Source: Prochlorococcus sp. AG-436-K22
GTDB lineage: Bacteria; Cyanobacteriota; Cyanobacteriia; PCC-6307; Cyanobiaceae
Length of the DNA stretch: 32,148 bases
Assembly (NCBI GenBank): GCA_003212555.1
Contig: QCPK01000015.1
Coordinates: forward strand, 1-32,148
Reading direction: 5' to 3'
Within the stretch, counting starts at the first letter, position 1. Each line of letters opens with the position of its first letter. The translations under genes and the position numbers were made by a program. The notes beneath the pieces were generated by a model. That model was not told the origin of the DNA and did no database searches. It worked only from the letters and a program-made list of their open reading frames with translations. This document shows, in pieces, positions 15,343 through 23,744 of the stretch.

Positions 15343-18300
15343 ATGAGCTTGCTCCACGCTACTTGGTTAAGTCAATCTGAAGATTTGCCATCTGATAACT
15401 CTCCAGTTTTGTTCCTTTGGGCAGATACATGGCAAATGGCCACTCTCAAAAAACCAAAGACCAGTCCTTGTCCTCATCCTTACTCATTGTCTTCCAAAGA
15501 ATTAAAAATTTGGTTGGAGAAAAAAAACATATTGCCTAAAGAAGCAATAGATGGAACAGCATGCCTAACACTTCCCAGTAAGTCTGCTCTCAAAACCAGA
15601 AAAGCACCTAATGGCAAGGGCTCCGAAGGAGATCAAGAATGGGCGACGCTTCCCTTACTAGCAGGAGAAGCAACCCCAAAAAACTATGAATTGTGGCCAT
15701 GGAAAATTAATGGTCTCGCACTCAACGCTTGGGACGCCTCAAAATGGTTAACACAATTACCTCTATCTCAAAAAGATTCTGACTTAAGTGAAGAAATACT
15801 TTGGTGGACACATTTACAACGTTGGTCTTTAAGTCTGATTGCAAATGGATTATGGCTTCCGCAAATTGCATTAAGAAAAAATGAATACCAGCATCATCGT
15901 GCTCGCTGGGTACCATTACTTAATCAAGAAAATGAACGAAAAAGACTAGAAGAATTTATCCAAAAAATGCCATTAGGAGTCATGTGCTCAATTCCCTGGA
16001 TAGATAAAAGCAAGGGAAGCAAAAACAACAGTGGATCAAAATCAACAAAATCTCTTTCTGTAGCAAACCCTATTGCATCATCACTGGTTAAACAGGACCG
16101 AAATGTAGTGATAAATATCTTAGAAGAAATTCTTGATTCCCAGCTTCGAAAAGACTTTAAGAAGGAGACAACCAACTTAGATCCATTACTAGCAGCTTGG
16201 CAAACATCACTTGGATCAACAAATGGATTCATTGATTTGTGCGATGAAGATCTAAAACGTTTAGAAAAAGCTACTAAACATTGGAAGGGAGCCTTATATC
16301 CCAAGCTCAATGATGCAAAAACATGCCTTGCACTAATACCACCAATTAATGATGAAACAATATGGACCCTACATTTTCTTTTACAAGCAGAATCGAATTC
16401 AGCACTTACAATTTCTGCAGCTAAGGTTTGGGAAACAAACTCCAATAGCATAGATATTGGCGAAATAAAAGTTGCAAAAGCTAGTGAAATTCTTCTAGAA
16501 GGCCTAGGCAGAGCAATGCAAATTTTTCCTGCTATCGAACGAGGTCTAGAAACCCCCACACCTCACAATATGCAACTATCTCCAGATGAAGCGTTTGTAT
16601 TTATTAAAACAGCATCACAGCAACTACGAGACAATGGAATTGGCGTAATACTTCCCAAAAGTCTATCCACAGGCGTATCAAGTCGGCTAGGTATAACAAT
16701 CAAAGCAGAGCTTAAAGATGCAACTCACGGGGCTCGACCAGGAGACAGTCTAGATTGGAGTTGGAGTTTAATGATAGGTGGTATAGATTTAACTATAAAA
16801 GAATTAGAAATACTTGGAAAGAAAAAAAGTCCTTTAGTGAATCACAAAGGTACGTGGATTGAATTACGACCAAATGATTTACAAAAAGTTGAAAGATTTT
16901 CTTTTGACCCACCACACCTCAACCTTGATGAGGCATTAACTCTAACTTCCACTACAGGAAATACCCTTCTCAAGCTTCCAGTACATCAATTTAATCCTGG
17001 ACCAAGATTGCAGTCTGTTTTAGAACAATATCACCAACACAGTTCTCCTCAATCTATACCAGATCCGGAAGGGTTTCATGGGCAACTCAGACCATATCAA
17101 CAACGAGGTCTAGGCTGGCTGGCTTTTCTATATCAATTTCATCAAGGGGCCTGCCTCGCAGATGACATGGGACTTGGAAAAACTATTCAATTATTAGCAT
17201 TTATCCAACAATTAAAGAACCAGGGAGAACTGACAAAACCTTTATTACTTATTGCACCAACTTCAGTGTTAACCAACTGGAAAAGAGAATCTATAGCATT
17301 TACTCCAGGATTATCTCTTATTGAACACTATGGCACCCAAAGAGCAAAGACCATAGAACAACTCAATCATTCACTTAAGGAAATTGATATCTGTATAACA
17401 AGTTACAGCCTAGCCTGTAGAGATAGTAAGCTATTAAACAATATCAACTGGCAAGGTGTTGTCATTGATGAAGCACAAGCTATAAAAAACTCAAAGGCAA
17501 AACAAAGTATTGCAATCAGAGAAATTAGCCAAGGTCTAAAACATGATCCCCTTCGAATTGCACTTACAGGAACACCCATCGAAAACCGTATCAGTGAAAT
17601 ATGGTCTCTGATGAATTTCCTAAATCCAAAAGTACTCGGCGAAGAAGCTTTTTTTAATCAAAGGTACAAGCTTCCTATTGAACATTATGGAGATATCTCG
17701 TCTTTAAAAGACCTAAAATCACGTGTGAACCCATTTATATTAAGACGACTAAAAACAGACCAATCGATTATTTCAGACTTGCCAAGTAAAATTGAGTTAA
17801 ATGAATGGGTAAGTCTCAGTAAAGAGCAAGAAAGTCTTTATAACAAAACTGTCGAGACAAATCTACAAGAAATCGCAGCATCACCACTAGGCCAACGCCA
17901 TGGCAAAACCTTAGGACTACTAACTCGTCTTAAACAAATTTGCAATCACCCTGCACTCAATTTAAAAGAAAAAGAGATTAATCAAAATTTTCTAGAACGT
18001 TCATCAAAACTACAAAGACTTGATCAGATACTTGAAGAAATTTTGGAAACCAATGACCGGGCTTTACTATTTACTCAATTCACGGAATGGGGACACTTAC
18101 TTCAATCTTATCTAATGAAAAAATGGGAAACTGAAGTTCCTTTCCTGCATGGAGGAAGCTCAAAAATACAACGACAAGAAATGATAGATCGATTTCAAAA
18201 TGATCCACGAGGCCCAAAACTATTTTTACTTTCATTAAAAGCAGGTGGATTAGGGTTAAATCTAACTAGAGCTAATCATGTGTTTCACATTGATCGATGG

Positions 18301-18534
18301 TGGAATCCAGCTGTAGAAAATCAAGCGACAGATCGTGCATATCGAATTGGGCAAACTAAAAGTGTTATCGTTCACAAATTCATTACCACAGGATCTATTG
18401 AAGAGAAAATTAATCAAATGATCTTTGAAAAATCTCAGCTTGCTGAAAACATAGTGGGATCTGGAGAAAGTTGGCTTGGCAAGCTTAGTGTTGACGAGCT
18501 AAGCAAATTAGTTGTCTTAGACAACAATGCATAA
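15343..18534 (+). CDS. SNF2-family helicase-like ATPase
   Basis: The 1063-residue protein has a long N-terminal part (1-about 560, including the SNF2-associated region typical of bacterial homologues) and a C-terminal two-lobed SF2 ATPase. Motifs are complete: motif I DDMGLGKT at 607-614, motif II DEAQ at 709-712, motif III LTGTPIENR, motif IV region LLFTQFTEW, motif V SLKAGGLGLNLT and motif VI QATDRAYRIGQ at 994-1004. SNF2 proteins are double-stranded DNA translocases that remodel protein-DNA complexes rather than open strands; the bacterial role is not well defined. ATG at 15343 gives MSLLHATWL, which I recognise as the usual cyanobacterial N-terminus. A SWIM-domain gene follows 15 bases downstream, probably in one operon and perhaps in one complex. 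Confidence 0.92.
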   Translation: MSLLHATWLSQSEDLPSDNSPVLFLWADTWQMATLKKPKTSPCPHPYSLSSKELKIWLEKKNILPKEAIDGTACLTLPSKSALKTRKAPNGKGSEGDQEWATLPLLAGEATPKNYELWPWKINGLALNAWDASKWLTQLPLSQKDSDLSEEILWWTHLQRWSLSLIANGLWLPQIALRKNEYQHHRARWVPLLNQENERKRLEEFIQKMPLGVMCSIPWIDKSKGSKNNSGSKSTKSLSVANPIASSLVKQDRNVVINILEEILDSQLRKDFKKETTNLDPLLAAWQTSLGSTNGFIDLCDEDLKRLEKATKHWKGALYPKLNDAKTCLALIPPINDETIWTLHFLLQAESNSALTISAAKVWETNSNSIDIGEIKVAKASEILLEGLGRAMQIFPAIERGLETPTPHNMQLSPDEAFVFIKTASQQLRDNGIGVILPKSLSTGVSSRLGITIKAELKDATHGARPGDSLDWSWSLMIGGIDLTIKELEILGKKKSPLVNHKGTWIELRPNDLQKVERFSFDPPHLNLDEALTLTSTTGNTLLKLPVHQFNPGPRLQSVLEQYHQHSSPQSIPDPEGFHGQLRPYQQRGLGWLAFLYQFHQGACLADDMGLGKTIQLLAFIQQLKNQGELTKPLLLIAPTSVLTNWKRESIAFTPGLSLIEHYGTQRAKTIEQLNHSLKEIDICITSYSLACRDSKLLNNINWQGVVIDEAQAIKNSKAKQSIAIREISQGLKHDPLRIALTGTPIENRISEIWSLMNFLNPKVLGEEAFFNQRYKLPIEHYGDISSLKDLKSRVNPFILRRLKTDQSIISDLPSKIELNEWVSLSKEQESLYNKTVETNLQEIAASPLGQRHGKTLGLLTRLKQICNHPALNLKEKEINQNFLERSSKLQRLDQILEEILETNDRALLFTQFTEWGHLLQSYLMKKWETEVPFLHGGSSKIQRQEMIDRFQNDPRGPKLFLLSLKAGGLGLNLTRANHVFHIDRWWNPAVENQATDRAYRIGQTKSVIVHKFITTGSIEEKINQMIFEKSQLAENIVGSGESWLGKLSVDELSKLVVLDNNA

Positions 18535-18549
18535 AATTCCAAACTAATC

Positions 18550-19419
18550 ATGCATGAGACTGAAATAACAACAGCTCTAACTAAAAAAGGACTAGGAGAG
18601 CAAGCCTGGTGGGTCGAGCAATGGATGGAACTAATCAACTCATATCGCTATAAAAAACGCCTAGAACGTGCATGGAGTTATGCAAGAGAAGGAAATGTCA
18701 TATCAATACGCTTCGAGGGTCGAAGGGTTCATGCAAGAGTACAGGGTACAGAAGAAAAGCCATACAAAGTAAAGCTTTGGCTAGATGTTCTAGATGATGA
18801 GGATTGGGAATATGTAATTGACGCATTAGCAAAAAAAGCAAAATGGTCAGCTCAATTATTAGCTGGAGTTATGCCAAAAGACATTGAAAATGCTTTTGCA
18901 ACTACTGGGAAAAGGCTATTCCCCTTTAATCTCCAAGAAGTAAAAAGTGAATGCAGTTGCCCGGATCAAGCAAATCCGTGCAAACATATTAGTGCTATTT
19001 ATTTTTTAATGGGAGATCAATTTAAAGAAGATCCTTTTATTCTTTTCCAATTGCGTGGAAAAGATAGAACTACATTATTATCAAGTTTAGTCCACAAGAG
19101 ATTAATGTTAAGTCAAGAAAGGAAACAAGCAACTAACGAGTCTGAGAATACATCTTCTATAAGAGAAAATACCTGTCAAAATAATATGATAACCACTCCA
19201 GATCGCTGGTGGGAATATAAGAGTGCATTAGATGATGAACTGGTAGTCATCACACCTTCACAAGAAGAAACAGCTGGTCCTGCAATTGCAGGTGAATTAC
19301 CATTAGCTTCAAATCCACAATTCCCTGAATCACAAAATAATTTTATGCGAGCGTTACTCTCTTACAGTCAAGTTCAAGCCCAAAAAGCAATGTTGAGCGC
19401 AATGAAAATCAAAAACTAA
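18550..19419 (+). CDS. SWIM zinc-finger protein
   Basis: The 289-residue protein contains a SWIM motif of the form CxCx6CxH: C135, C137, C144 and H146 in the segment CSCPDQANPCKH, followed by ISAIYFLMGDQF. SWIM fingers bind zinc and mediate DNA or protein contacts, and in bacteria they are commonly found beside SNF2 ATPases. The N-terminal 120 residues (WWVEQWMELINSYRYKKRLERAW) are basic and aromatic-rich; the C-terminal 100 residues look poorly ordered apart from a last helix. The gene begins 15 bases after the helicase stop with no good ribosome site, which suggests translation tied to the helicase message. The function beyond zinc and nucleic-acid binding is not known. Confidence 0.85.
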   Translation: MHETEITTALTKKGLGEQAWWVEQWMELINSYRYKKRLERAWSYAREGNVISIRFEGRRVHARVQGTEEKPYKVKLWLDVLDDEDWEYVIDALAKKAKWSAQLLAGVMPKDIENAFATTGKRLFPFNLQEVKSECSCPDQANPCKHISAIYFLMGDQFKEDPFILFQLRGKDRTTLLSSLVHKRLMLSQERKQATNESENTSSIRENTCQNNMITTPDRWWEYKSALDDELVVITPSQEETAGPAIAGELPLASNPQFPESQNNFMRALLSYSQVQAQKAMLSAMKIKN

Positions 19420-19563: not shown

Positions 19564-21336
19564 ATGGGAAACAACTCACCAACCGTCATTGAAACGTCAA
19601 CAAATAACCCTAAGCTTTCCTTACAATGCCAAAGCATAGGTCTAAATACAACTACAATTCGTTCACTGGATTGGGACCGGAGTCGCTTTGATATTGAGTT
19701 TGGTTTAAGAAATGGAACAACCTATAACAGTTTTATTATTCAAGGTGAAAAAACCGTTTTAATTGACAGCAGTCATCTGAAATTTAAAAAGATATGGTTA
19801 AAAATTTTACAAGAAAAAATTAATCCAAAAGCAATTGATTATTTAGTAGTAAGCCATACGGAACCAGATCATTCTGGGTTAATCAGTGACATCCTTGACC
19901 TAAACAACAATATTGAAATTTATGGTTCAAAAGTAGCTATACAATTTCTGCAAAACCAAGTTCATCGACCCTTCAGATCAACCGCTATAAAAACTGGTAA
20001 TGAGCTTGACTTAGGGGAAAATTCATCTAATGGAATTCACCATAAACTTCAATTTATCAGTGCTCCCAATCTCCATTGGCCAGATACTATTTTCTCATTT
20101 GATCATGGAACAAATATTCTTTATACATGTGATGCCTTTGGACTCCATTACTGTACTGATGAACTTTTTGATCTAGAACCTGATGTTATTAGTTCAGATT
20201 TCCGTTACTACTACGATTGCTTAATGGGACCAAATGCTCGCAGCGTCCTTCAAGCACTCAAACGAATTAAAAGCTTGCCAGATATTAAAACAATTGCCGT
20301 TGGTCATGGACCTTTACTGCATCACAACATAGAGCTATGGCTGAATAATTATCATGAATGGAGTCGTCAACGAAATACTACAGATGGATATGCGGCTATT
20401 TGCTATATCAGCCAATATGGTTTTTGTGATCGGCTTAGTCAAGCAATTGCTTTAGGAGCAAGTAAAGCTGAAGCTCAAATTCAACTTGTTGACATCAGAG
20501 CATCTGACACTCAAGAACTTAGTGCACTCATTGGAGAAGCAAAAGCTGTAATTTTGCCAACATGGCCAAGTCAAGCTGATACAGAACTTCAGAGTGCAAT
20601 AGGAACATTACTTGCAGCATTAAAACAAAAGCAATGGGTAGGAGTATATGAAAGTTATGGGAAAAATGATGAGCCAATCGATGTAATTGCCAATCAACTT
20701 AGAGGGCTTAGTCAAAAAGAAGCGTTTTCACCATTGAGGATTAAAAAGTCACCTGATGCCAATACATTTCAACGATTCGAAGAAGCAGGAACTGACCTCG
20801 GACAACTACTAAACCGTAAAAAGAATATTGCTACTATTAAAAGTTTTGATGGTGATCTAGTCAAAGCACTTGGACGCATTAGTGGAGGTTTATATGTCGT
20901 AACCGCAAGTCAAGGTCAAAATCAAGAGAAACGTCGAGGAGCAATGGTTGCCAGCTGGGTCAGTCAAGCTAGTTTCAGACCTCCTGGGTTAACTGTTGCA
21001 GTTGCAAAAGATCGAGCCATTGAGTCACTAATGCAAGTAGGCGATCGTTTTGTCTTAAATGTTCTAGAAGAGAATAATTACCAACAACTATTTAGACAAT
21101 TTCTTAAACGCTTTCCTCCAGGGGCAGACCGTTTTGAAGGCATATCAATAATTGACAATGTTGCACAAGGAGGACCTGTATTAATTGATGCACTTGCATA
21201 TTTAGATTGTCTAGTAAAACAAAGGCTCGAAACCACTGATCATTGGATCATCTATGCATTAGTAGAACATGGGAATATTTCCAATTCAGAGGCAAGGACT
21301 GCCGTCCATCATAGAAAAGTCGGGACCTCGTACTAA
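19564..21336 (+). CDS. flv3: flavodiiron protein, Flv3-like subunit
   Basis: The 590-residue protein has the three cyanobacterial flavodiiron modules: metallo-beta-lactamase-like di-iron domain (about 25-270), flavodoxin-like domain (about 275-425) and NAD(P)H:flavin oxidoreductase domain (about 430-590, with GAMVASWVSQASFRPPGLTVAV). The di-iron ligands are intact: H98, E100, D102 and H103 (HTEPDH), H171 (LHW), D190 (CDAFG) and H248 (GHGP). This points to the Flv3 class, which with Flv1 reduces O2 to water using electrons from the photosynthetic chain. The FMN phosphate loop is odd, S283-QYGFC-D, lacking the usual Asn-Thr. It overlaps the next gene by one base (TAATG), so the two are likely made in matched amounts. 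The Flv3 label rests on ligand pattern and order. Confidence 0.88.
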   Translation: MGNNSPTVIETSTNNPKLSLQCQSIGLNTTTIRSLDWDRSRFDIEFGLRNGTTYNSFIIQGEKTVLIDSSHLKFKKIWLKILQEKINPKAIDYLVVSHTEPDHSGLISDILDLNNNIEIYGSKVAIQFLQNQVHRPFRSTAIKTGNELDLGENSSNGIHHKLQFISAPNLHWPDTIFSFDHGTNILYTCDAFGLHYCTDELFDLEPDVISSDFRYYYDCLMGPNARSVLQALKRIKSLPDIKTIAVGHGPLLHHNIELWLNNYHEWSRQRNTTDGYAAICYISQYGFCDRLSQAIALGASKAEAQIQLVDIRASDTQELSALIGEAKAVILPTWPSQADTELQSAIGTLLAALKQKQWVGVYESYGKNDEPIDVIANQLRGLSQKEAFSPLRIKKSPDANTFQRFEEAGTDLGQLLNRKKNIATIKSFDGDLVKALGRISGGLYVVTASQGQNQEKRRGAMVASWVSQASFRPPGLTVAVAKDRAIESLMQVGDRFVLNVLEENNYQQLFRQFLKRFPPGADRFEGISIIDNVAQGGPVLIDALAYLDCLVKQRLETTDHWIIYALVEHGNISNSEARTAVHHRKVGTSY

Positions 21337-23171
21337 TGCCAAATCCTGCAATCAATCAATTGCTAGAAGAACAAACAAACAGTAAAAGCGTTATCAATTT
21401 TTCTATCGATGATGGATTTATTTCACTGAGATGTCTAAGTCCAAAGAAACTACGGTTTGAAATTGAATATTCCCTCGGGAAAGGTACAACCTCTAATTCT
21501 TTTCTTTTTTATAAAAAACAAGACTTAACAGCAGTGTTGGCTAATCCTCCAGGGTCAAATTTTGAAGAAGTATTTCTTCCAGCTTTAAACAAAGTTATCC
21601 CCAAAAATCTGAAAGAACTAATAGTCATTGTTGGTCATATCAATCCTAATCGAGTTAATCTTCTTCGAAAGCTATCTAATCAATACAATAATATAACAAT
21701 AATCTGTTCTAACCCAGGTGGCAAATTACTCAAAGAACTTTGGACTCAAATTAAGCCTACAAACGCTAACAATATAACTCTCAAACCAGACATTCCTCCA
21801 ATCCCAAAAATTAATTTAATAAAGCAAGAGACTTCTATATCTATATCTAATGGGTATGTAATCAAGTTAATCCCATCTCCAACAGCTCGTTGGCCAGGTG
21901 GACTTATAACTTTTGAAGAAAAAACAGGTTTTCTTATGAGTGACAAACTTTTTGGAGCACATATATGTAGTCAAGAATGGGAAGAAAAAAATAGGGTTAG
22001 TACAGAAGATGAGCGACGACATTACTTTGACTGTCTTATGACTCCCATGATTAGCCAAGTGAATCGTATTGTAGAAAAACTTGAATTACTGAATATCCGT
22101 ACCATTGCACCAAGTCATGGGCCCACTATTGAAACGAGTTGGCGTAGTTTATTAAATGATTACCAAAGATGGGGATGTCAACAAAGTAACGCATCTATCA
22201 ATATTGTTATGCTATTTGCCAGTGCATATGGAAACACCGCAGCGATAGCAGATACTCTAGCCAAGGGGATTAATTCAACAGGAGTCCACGTAAGAAGCCT
22301 TAATTGTGAATTTACTTCAGCAAATGAATTAGTAGCGGCTATTCGAGAAGCAGATGCCTATCTCATTGGCTCTCCAACTCTTGGTGGACACGCACCCACC
22401 CCTATTGTTTCAGCTCTTGGGACTCTTCTTTCTGAAGGAGACAGGAAAAAGAAAGTAGGTATATTTGGTAGTTATGGATGGAGTGGAGAAGCTTTAGATC
22501 TATTAGAAAGTAAATTACTTGACGGGGGCTTTGAATTTGGTTTTAATCCAATCAAAATTAAATTCAGTCCGAATGCAGAAATACTAAAAACGATAGAAGA
22601 AACAGGAACAAAATTTGGTCGGAAACTAATTTCAGAAGAAAGAAGACAGCAACGTCGACTAAGTGGGGGAATTAATATAAACAAAAGTGATCCTTCATTA
22701 TTAGCACTTGGAAAAATTGTTGGATCCTTATCTGTTTTAACAGCTCAAAAAAATGAAGAAGAAAGCAACATTAACAGTGCAATGGTTGCAAGCTGGATTA
22801 GTCAAGCCAGTTTCTCTCCTCCAGGAATCACAATTGCTGTAGCTAAAGATAGAGCTGTAGAGTCTCTCCTTCATAATGACGACCTTTTTGCCCTCAATAT
22901 TCTTAATGAGGATAATCACCACAAATTACTCAAACAGTTTCTCCAGCCTTTTCCCCCAGGAACAAATCGTTTGTCAGGTCTTAATCTCTTAAGGAGTCCA
23001 AGAAATCAACCCATTCTGCCAGAGGCTTTGGCCTGGATAGAATGTTGTGTCAAGCAACGTATGGAATGTGGAGACCATTGGTTAATTTATGCAGAAGTTC
23101 TGCATGGCAAGGTCCTAGATCAAAATGGAGTGACAGCTGTTCATCATCGTCGTACTGGAGCAAATTATTAA
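21336..23171 (+). CDS. flv1: flavodiiron protein, Flv1-like subunit with degenerate di-iron site
   Basis: This 611-residue partner has the same three domains as the preceding gene and resembles it along its length (for example MVASWISQASFSPPGITIAV). The di-iron site is altered: where the partner has H-E-D-H it has H101, N103, N105 and R106 (GHINPNR), and the later histidine is R185 (ARWPGG). D203 and H261 remain. This loss fits the Flv1/Flv2 class, whose members act only with Flv3/Flv4-type partners. In contrast, its flavodoxin loop is canonical (S296-AYGN-T301). Start ATG at 21336 shares a base with the upstream stop, typical of translational coupling. The flavin reductase-like domain at the C-terminus (about 455-611) should let the complex take electrons from NADPH or ferredoxin. 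Confidence 0.88.
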   Translation: MPNPAINQLLEEQTNSKSVINFSIDDGFISLRCLSPKKLRFEIEYSLGKGTTSNSFLFYKKQDLTAVLANPPGSNFEEVFLPALNKVIPKNLKELIVIVGHINPNRVNLLRKLSNQYNNITIICSNPGGKLLKELWTQIKPTNANNITLKPDIPPIPKINLIKQETSISISNGYVIKLIPSPTARWPGGLITFEEKTGFLMSDKLFGAHICSQEWEEKNRVSTEDERRHYFDCLMTPMISQVNRIVEKLELLNIRTIAPSHGPTIETSWRSLLNDYQRWGCQQSNASINIVMLFASAYGNTAAIADTLAKGINSTGVHVRSLNCEFTSANELVAAIREADAYLIGSPTLGGHAPTPIVSALGTLLSEGDRKKKVGIFGSYGWSGEALDLLESKLLDGGFEFGFNPIKIKFSPNAEILKTIEETGTKFGRKLISEERRQQRRLSGGININKSDPSLLALGKIVGSLSVLTAQKNEEESNINSAMVASWISQASFSPPGITIAVAKDRAVESLLHNDDLFALNILNEDNHHKLLKQFLQPFPPGTNRLSGLNLLRSPRNQPILPEALAWIECCVKQRMECGDHWLIYAEVLHGKVLDQNGVTAVHHRRTGANY

Positions 23172-23219: not shown

Positions 23220-23744
23220 ATGAATACCAATAAAAATTTACTAGTTATAGCAGCTAGTGATGGGGAAAATCTAAAGCTTGCAAATCGATTTGTATCTTTA
23301 GGAAAAAAGATGGGAACAAACCCTGAATTGCTAGATCTGACTAGCCTAGATCTTCCACTATTTAGTCCAAAAAAGCATGCTGAGTTAGGAATTCCATCCA
23401 CAATAAAGAGTCTTCATTCTCAAATGGTGTCGAACACCTACTGGGTTATTTGTGCACCTGAATATAATGGTTCAATCCCACCTGTGTTAACAAGCGCAAT
23501 TGCATGGCTCTCAGTACAAGAGTCAGATTTTCGTAGCTTATTCAATGGAAGGCCGATTGCAATGGCAAGTGTATCTGGAGGAGGCTGCATGGAACTGCTT
23601 CTATCAATGCGAATACAATTCACGCATCTTGGTGCACAAGTAGTCGGTCGGCAATTAGCTAGTAATAGCAAAAACCCCGCTCAAGATTCATCCATCAACG
23701 ACATACTAAATAGATTGCTTCAAATGAAAGCATTAACCCTATAA
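23220..23744 (+). CDS. NADPH-dependent FMN reductase family protein
   Basis: The 174-residue protein is a flavodoxin-like fold reductase: the N-terminal strand LLVIAASDGENLKLANRF forms a phosphate-binding loop, and the FMN-ring motif is APEYNGSIPPVLTSAIAWL at about 80-98, typical of the SsuE/ChrR/azoreductase-like group. GRPIAMASVSGGGCMELLL holds the next strand and loop. The usual loop has more Ser/Arg residues (GSxRxxS); here it is ASDGENLK, a variant. Such enzymes reduce FMN, quinones or dyes with NADPH. It begins 48 bases after flv1 on the same strand and may be cotranscribed, so supply of reduced flavin or quinone to the same redox context is possible but only inferred. No ribosome site is seen upstream of the ATG. 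Confidence 0.82.
   Translation: MNTNKNLLVIAASDGENLKLANRFVSLGKKMGTNPELLDLTSLDLPLFSPKKHAELGIPSTIKSLHSQMVSNTYWVICAPEYNGSIPPVLTSAIAWLSVQESDFRSLFNGRPIAMASVSGGGCMELLLSMRIQFTHLGAQVVGRQLASNSKNPAQDSSINDILNRLLQMKALTL

Follow-up and report, generated by a model that had tools for sequence, protein, structure and literature searches.

A Prochlorococcus flv3–flv1 pair with reciprocal active-site motifs found throughout the Flv3 and Flv1 classes

In homo-oligomeric flavodiiron proteins, the flavin mononucleotide (FMN) of one monomer adjoins the iron of the other (excerpts: PMC4390876, PMC6658166; "excerpt" here and below marks a source cited from passages of its text). For the cyanobacterial Flv2/Flv4 pair, a heterodimer model has Flv2 supply the FMN and Flv4 the iron, and both Flv1 and Flv2 are described as being without canonical ligands (PMC4390876). 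In Synechocystis, loss of Flv1 alone or of Flv3 alone is enough to stop O2 photoreduction, and Flv1 is needed for Flv3 to accumulate (PMC4390876). Furthermore, mutations are reported to block metal binding in the divergent Synechocystis class-C type-2 protein (excerpt: PMC7785958, citing Borges 2019), and a flv3–flv1 operon is listed for most Prochlorococcus strains (excerpt: PMC4390876). A 2024 expert review counts among the open questions which oligomeric form of these proteins is functional (excerpt: PMC11449116). Here, we analyze the flv3–flv1 pair in a 32,148-nucleotide stretch of DNA from Prochlorococcus sp. AG-436-K22, referred to below as the window, and find that each protein keeps the active-site motifs that its partner has lost, a pattern that extends throughout both protein classes.

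Reciprocal iron and FMN motifs

The two genes lie on the forward strand, as do all window features described below. The first, flv3 (19564–21336), encodes a class-C flavodiiron protein of 590 amino acids with metallo-beta-lactamase, flavodoxin-like, and flavin-reductase domains; the second, flv1 (21336–23171), encodes a class-C protein of 611 amino acids without a canonical diiron site. Both open frames are present as the first-pass annotation of this DNA had described them. Their names come from best matches and from a tree that places each window protein inside its own clade. PF19583 and PF01613 match both proteins and PF00258 matches Flv1, which is the domain set of class C. The C-terminal flavin-reductase domain (PF01613) occupies 20869–21315 in Flv3 and 22719–23153 in Flv1. 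Window Flv3 has no PF00258 match at an E-value of 0.001; it does match the solved flavodoxin-like domains 3hly and 3fni, which, like 2klb, come from the Flv3 class. The Synechocystis Flv1 core (6h0c) is the closest solved chain for both proteins. Single-chain models reached a per-residue confidence of 84.2 and 85.9 for the two proteins, and the domain arrangement of the Flv3 model was left unused because its predicted template modelling score (pTM) was only 0.60.

Window Flv3 retains all seven diiron ligands (HEDHHDH). These are H98, E100, D102, and H103 (19855–19872), H171 (20074–20076), the bridging ligand D190 (20131–20133), and H248 (20305–20307), exactly as they had been read in the annotation. 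The corresponding set in window Flv1 is HNNRRKH, in which five of the seven positions are substituted (N/N/R/R/K). The substituted motif H101-x-N103-x-N105-R106 is found at 21636–21653, R185 replaces a ligand histidine at 21888–21890, K204 replaces the ligand aspartate equivalent to Flv3 D190 at 21945–21947, and H261 (22116–22118) is a ligand position that is kept. The annotation had named N103, N105, R106, and R185 correctly, but its count of four lost ligands has to be raised to five, as it had missed K204.

The converse is observed in three loops that we presume, from flavodoxin and flavodiiron structures, to bind FMN; the loop columns were picked by us from motifs of these two families. 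In Flv1, all three are canonical: SAYGNT in loop 1 (residues 296–301; 22221–22238), IGSPTLGGHAPT in loop 2 (22365–22400), and FGSYGWSGEA in loop 3 (22464–22493). In Flv3, loop 1 is altered to SQYGFCD (residues 283–289; 20410–20430), loop 2 to PTWPSQADTEL (20557–20589), and loop 3 to YESYGKNDEPI (20647–20679), which lacks the tryptophan and carries the acidic residues E363 and D369. The annotation had placed both loop-1 motifs correctly; loops 2 and 3 depart as well, reading LPTWPSQADTEL and YESYGKNDEP in Flv3 versus IGSPTLGGHAPTPI and FGSYGWSGEA in Flv1, with PTWP replacing the canonical GSPT and ESYGKND replacing GSYGWSG. Set against the general flavodiiron feature of FMN held by the flavodoxin domain of each subunit, the Flv1 loops are canonical and the Flv3 loops altered.

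To place the pair in its family, we counted motifs in a set of picocyanobacteria, Nostocales, and other cyanobacteria that yielded, together with the window pair, 80 Flv3-class and 82 Flv1-class proteins. The main set comprises open frames of at least 350 amino acids from loci L046 and L049–L119; a 349-residue Flv3 piece (G023), two Flv3 pieces in G031, and pieces in G038 and G042 were left out as short. Two genomes, G007 and G015, gave a weak match only, and among the relatives of G060 the proteins of 7 of 16 genomes were read (G061–G064, G066, G069, and G070). Fifteen Prochlorococcus loci (L033–L045, L047, and L048), several of them from duplicates of genomes already counted, contributed gene order only. 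A phylum-wide sample added 21 Flv3-class rows kept separate from the 80, of which L171 duplicates a counted gene, and five Flv1-class rows, three full and two ending after loop 1.

The ligand set HEDHHDH occurs in 79 of the 80 Flv3-class proteins, the remaining one being truncated, versus none of the 82 Flv1-class proteins. HNNRRKH is found in 74 of the 82 Flv1-class proteins and also in the 6h0c chain, and the remainder are near variants, one of them truncated. Canonical ligands therefore go with Flv3 (cluster B) and non-canonical ligands with Flv1 (cluster A). The FMN motifs are distributed in the opposite way: SAYG[NS]T, GSPT, and GS[YFH]GWSG are each present in 82/82 Flv1-class and 0/80 Flv3-class proteins, and the loop-3 tryptophan follows the same division. 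None of the 21 additional Flv3-class rows has a canonical FMN loop. Among the additional Flv1-class rows, L172 reads GTPT instead of GSPT in loop 2. At the level of sequence, the proposal of complementary losses in the two subunits is strongly supported, as a property of the classes and not of the window. We rejected the idea of an unusual loop peculiar to the window, as every Flv3-class protein read lacks the canonical loop. Likewise, nothing was found in favor of a quirk or sequencing artefact confined to this single genome; the recurrence of the pattern in all Flv3-class and Flv1-class proteins read refutes it, and we give it practically no weight.

Two Flv1 proteins combine unusual iron sites with three canonical FMN loops: NNDRRRY in L049 (2595–4427) and HNQIRKH in L050 (complement 830–2638).

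Evolution and constraint of the two half-sites

The direction of change can be read from flavodiiron proteins outside the two classes. Four short flavodiiron proteins of the phylum (L169, L184, L194, and L195) and the aligned Escherichia coli flavorubredoxin (6etb) all keep both HEDHHDH and the loop-3 tryptophan. L194 unites Flv1-type loops (SAYGNT, GSPT, and GSYGWSGEA) with Flv3-type ligands. The loops of L184 and L195 are non-canonical (SVYGGT, ASTT, and ENGSW), with departures in loops 1 and 2 and the tryptophan of loop 3 retained. Relative to these complete proteins, the Flv3 class has altered its FMN loops and the Flv1 class its iron ligands. With flavorubredoxin as the root of the tree, both classes come out monophyletic, Flv3 with a support of 1.0 and Flv1 with 0.998, pointing to a single, ancient reciprocal loss. 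The simplest reading of these sequences is a single duplication followed by a single reciprocal loss, both predating the divergence of the sampled cyanobacteria. The full reciprocal pattern is also present in the pair at L079 (G048:C1).

We propose, with a probability of about 0.7, that reciprocal half-site loss after duplication has left one working O2-to-water site per Flv3/Flv1 heterodimer. In this scenario, one ancient duplication was followed by the loss of a different half of the original active site in each copy. Flv3 would have retained the diiron site but not the canonical FMN cradle, and Flv1 would have retained the cradle and exchanged five of seven iron ligands for N/N/R/R/K. Since the homo-oligomer plan pairs sites across monomers, a head-to-tail heterodimer would set the FMN of Flv1 opposite the iron of Flv3, giving one complete site, with electrons passing from the former to the latter, and one empty, dead site.

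The variability of the two half-sites bears on this proposal. In picocyanobacteria, the 26 FMN-loop columns average 0.85 bits of entropy for Flv3 and 0.05 bits for Flv1, with 0.81 and 0.93 bits for the remainder of the respective domains. The beta set gives 1.22 and 0.19 bits for the loops and 1.29 and 1.03 bits for the remainder. In column permutations, the excess of Flv3 over Flv1 variability at the FMN loops was matched in 2/20000 and 4/20000 cases. The Flv3 loops vary as their surrounding domain does, since loop and remainder entropies are alike. The iron columns have 0.04 bits in Flv3 and 0.54 bits in Flv1, versus 1.30 bits for the remainder of the Flv1 domain, suggesting that the replaced Flv1 site is still constrained. 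The equivalent permutation of the iron columns gave 19214/20000 and 5843/20000, as Flv1 is more variable across the whole domain; of the two tests, only that of the FMN loops is significant.

These values speak to an alternative in which Flv3 is an FMN-binding homo-oligomer with a modified pocket, its loops tuned rather than decayed, and Flv1 is auxiliary or regulatory. Part of the Flv3 loop does appear to be under selection, as aspartate at 369 and an acidic residue at 363 are invariant (80/80 Flv3-class, 0/82 Flv1-class). A tuned pocket is harder to reconcile with loops that otherwise vary like their domain and with the absence of the loop-3 tryptophan from every Flv3-class protein. We regard this alternative as possible but unlikely, and return to it below with the published biochemistry.

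The charge of the loop region separates the classes as well. Over 30 columns around the FMN loops, the three Flv3 groups have net charges of -4.8, -5.4, and -5.7, compared with -1.0, -0.96, and -1.0 for those of Flv1. In addition to positions 363 and 369, an acidic residue at 289 marks 78/80 Flv3-class and 0/82 Flv1-class proteins; position 370 is uninformative, being frequently acidic in both (76/80 and 82/82). The acidic Flv3 loops and the basic Flv1 residues R106, R185, and K204 would give a charge-swapped dead site that could favor the heteromer. A tentative extension, which we consider doubtful, is that after the one-time loss the dead site was remade as an electrostatic lock between Flv1 R106/R185/K204, in the vacated iron pocket, and Flv3 D289/E363/D369, in the vacated FMN cradle. 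Such a lock would meet only in the Flv1/Flv3 heterodimer, favoring the heteromer, again with one catalytic site per heterodimer. For the Flv1 proteins with altered pseudo-site residues (L049, L050, L051, and L118), no obvious matching Flv3 change was seen in the partners read (L049, L050, and L051).

The same charge, with about six acidic residues in the Flv3 loop region, would also be expected if the flavodoxin-like domain of Flv3 were an acidic dock for a donor (ferredoxin or FNR) and the iron were reduced without FMN in either flavodoxin domain. Ferredoxin is itself an acidic protein, which makes an acidic dock for it unlikely, and the near-invariant FMN loops of Flv1 are hard to explain if its FMN is unused. 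Consistent with a dock, FNR-L is reported to bind Flv3 and not Flv1 (excerpt: PMC11449116). On balance, we judge this explanation very improbable.

The heterodimer question

The heterodimer with a single working site, which we prefer, has to be weighed against several observations. Heterocyst Flv3B is reported to function as a homo-oligomer (excerpt: PMC11449116). We identified likely Flv3B proteins as Flv3 adjoining a Flv1 with the serine-containing ligand set HSNRRKH (L128/L130, L135, and L144), a serine pattern that has been ascribed to Flv1B (excerpt: PMC6616624). Their loops are as degenerate as those of other Flv3 proteins, so that, together with the homo-oligomer report, loop degeneracy may not abolish function. 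Recombinant Flv1, Flv3, and Flv4 alone show slow NAD(P)H:O2 activity (excerpts: PMC6658166, PMC11449116). The Flv1 core was solved as a bent monomer (excerpt: PMC6658166), and the head-to-tail geometry is for this reason only assumed. Loop 1 of Flv3 retains a serine, a glycine, and often a second serine, so weak FMN binding by Flv3 is possible. Finally, by the whole-domain PF00258 measure, the contrast between Flv3 and Flv1 is modest: of the 54 rows in the Flv3-led alignment A1, four of them Flv1-class, the model matches 35, versus 48 of the 50 rows in A2, three of them Flv3-class.

We also considered that Flv3B had regained a canonical FMN cradle to act alone, which the degenerate loops of the likely Flv3B proteins do not support.

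Several of these points are those expected for the FMN-binding Flv3 homo-oligomer introduced above. Flv3B is reported to be functional without Flv1B, overexpressed Flv3 gives partial rescue (excerpt: PMC11449116), and recombinant Flv3 is active in vitro (excerpts: PMC6658166, PMC11449116); an auxiliary role of Flv1 is compatible with PMC4390876. Against it, Synechocystis Flv3 homo-oligomers carry out no O2 photoreduction in vivo (excerpts: PMC4390876, PMC6658166, PMC11449116).

We therefore retain the heterodimer as the preferred arrangement. On the motif data, Flv3 and Flv1 probably have to work together, and the forced heteromer suggested in the first-pass annotation is the best reading, but unproven. 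Class-wide loss predicts an active unit with one site, composed of Flv3 iron and Flv1 FMN. It also predicts that mutations in the FMN loops of Flv1 matter far more than mutations in those of Flv3, and it sharpens the puzzle of the reported Flv3B homo-oligomers, which would have to function despite degenerate FMN loops.

Gene arrangement and relation to described systems

The stop codon of flv3 and the start codon of flv1 overlap by one base in TAATG (21334–21338), as noted in the annotation. An overlap of this kind (TAATG or TGATG) is usual in the family, joining the two genes in 25 of 33 picocyanobacterial pairs, and is compatible with translational coupling. Two picocyanobacterial pairs (L103 and L116) are separated by more than 1 kb, and alpha-cyanobacteria with open frames between flv3 and flv1 are also listed (excerpt: PMC4390876). 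The overlap occurs in none of the 33 other pairs tabulated (12 beta and 21 Nostocales), two of the beta rows (L078 and L087) being without a usable distance. The annotation had taken the overlap to support equal production of the two proteins; against this, Flv3 is reported to be 6-fold above Flv1 in Synechocystis (excerpt: PMC11449116), where flv3 and flv1, unlike the overlapping pair, occupy separate positions (excerpt: PMC4390876).

A scan of named genomes with one query protein returned 16 loci, 15 from Prochlorococcus and one from Nostocales. The Prochlorococcus loci encode proteins 96 to 68% identical.

About 50 bases downstream of flv1, an FMN_red (PF03358) flavoprotein gene is located at 23220–23744. 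FMN_red was found in 32 of the 37 same-family genomes searched, window included, and by hand count it adjoins flv1 in 26 of them; in the other six (G017, G018, G021, G022, G035, and G036), the two are not adjacent. FMN_red is possibly a third member of the operon, on the same transcript as flv1.

Upstream of flv3 on the same strand, positions 15343–19419 encode an SNF2-like helicase, named by inspection, and a protein with a SWIM zinc finger (PF04434). Among the 15 Prochlorococcus loci, 7 have the SWIM gene immediately 5' of flv3; it is more than 3.5 kb away in L039, L040, L043, L044, L045, and L047, and none was seen in L041 and L048.

One picocyanobacterial genome of about 3 Mb (G018) contains two flv3–flv1 pairs (L051 and L104), and in the Flv1 of the second pair a valine replaces the first ligand histidine. 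The tabulated alpha-cyanobacteria have two flv genes (excerpt: PMC4390876).

The reciprocal pattern is real, well supported, and of a known family, and it is partly published. Electron transfer across subunits has largely been put forward for the sister pair Flv2/Flv4, and the ligand loss of Flv1 and Flv2 has likewise been described (PMC4390876). A class-wide loss of the canonical FMN loops in Flv3 and Flv4 was not found stated in the literature searched, several key Flv studies lying outside its reach. We do not claim this loss as new, because the Flv2/Flv4 model presupposes a comparison of FMN sites by its authors. What the present analysis adds is how widely and how cleanly the reciprocal loss holds, together with the testable one-site prediction.

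Among described systems, class A and B flavodiiron proteins lack a fused flavin-reductase domain. E. coli flavorubredoxin (6etb/4d02) and the short proteins L169, L184, L194, and L195 share with the window pair the beta-lactamase and flavodoxin core and the HEDHHDH set; unlike the window pair, they combine the two half-sites within a single chain and form homo-oligomers (excerpt: PMC4390876). Likely Flv4/Flv2 pairs of beta-cyanobacteria (for example, L129, L133, and L136) share the reciprocal pattern, and Flv2/Flv4 differs in being another paralog pair, with a small open frame between its genes (excerpt: PMC4390876). The Flv1/Flv3 hetero-oligomer of the alpha-cyanobacterial flv3–flv1 operon is like the window pair in domain order, gene order, ligand pattern, and size. 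With no feature found that distinguishes it from these relatives, the window pair is a member of this group: an ordinary oxygen-reducing safety-valve pair that would act as an electron sink protecting photosynthesis.

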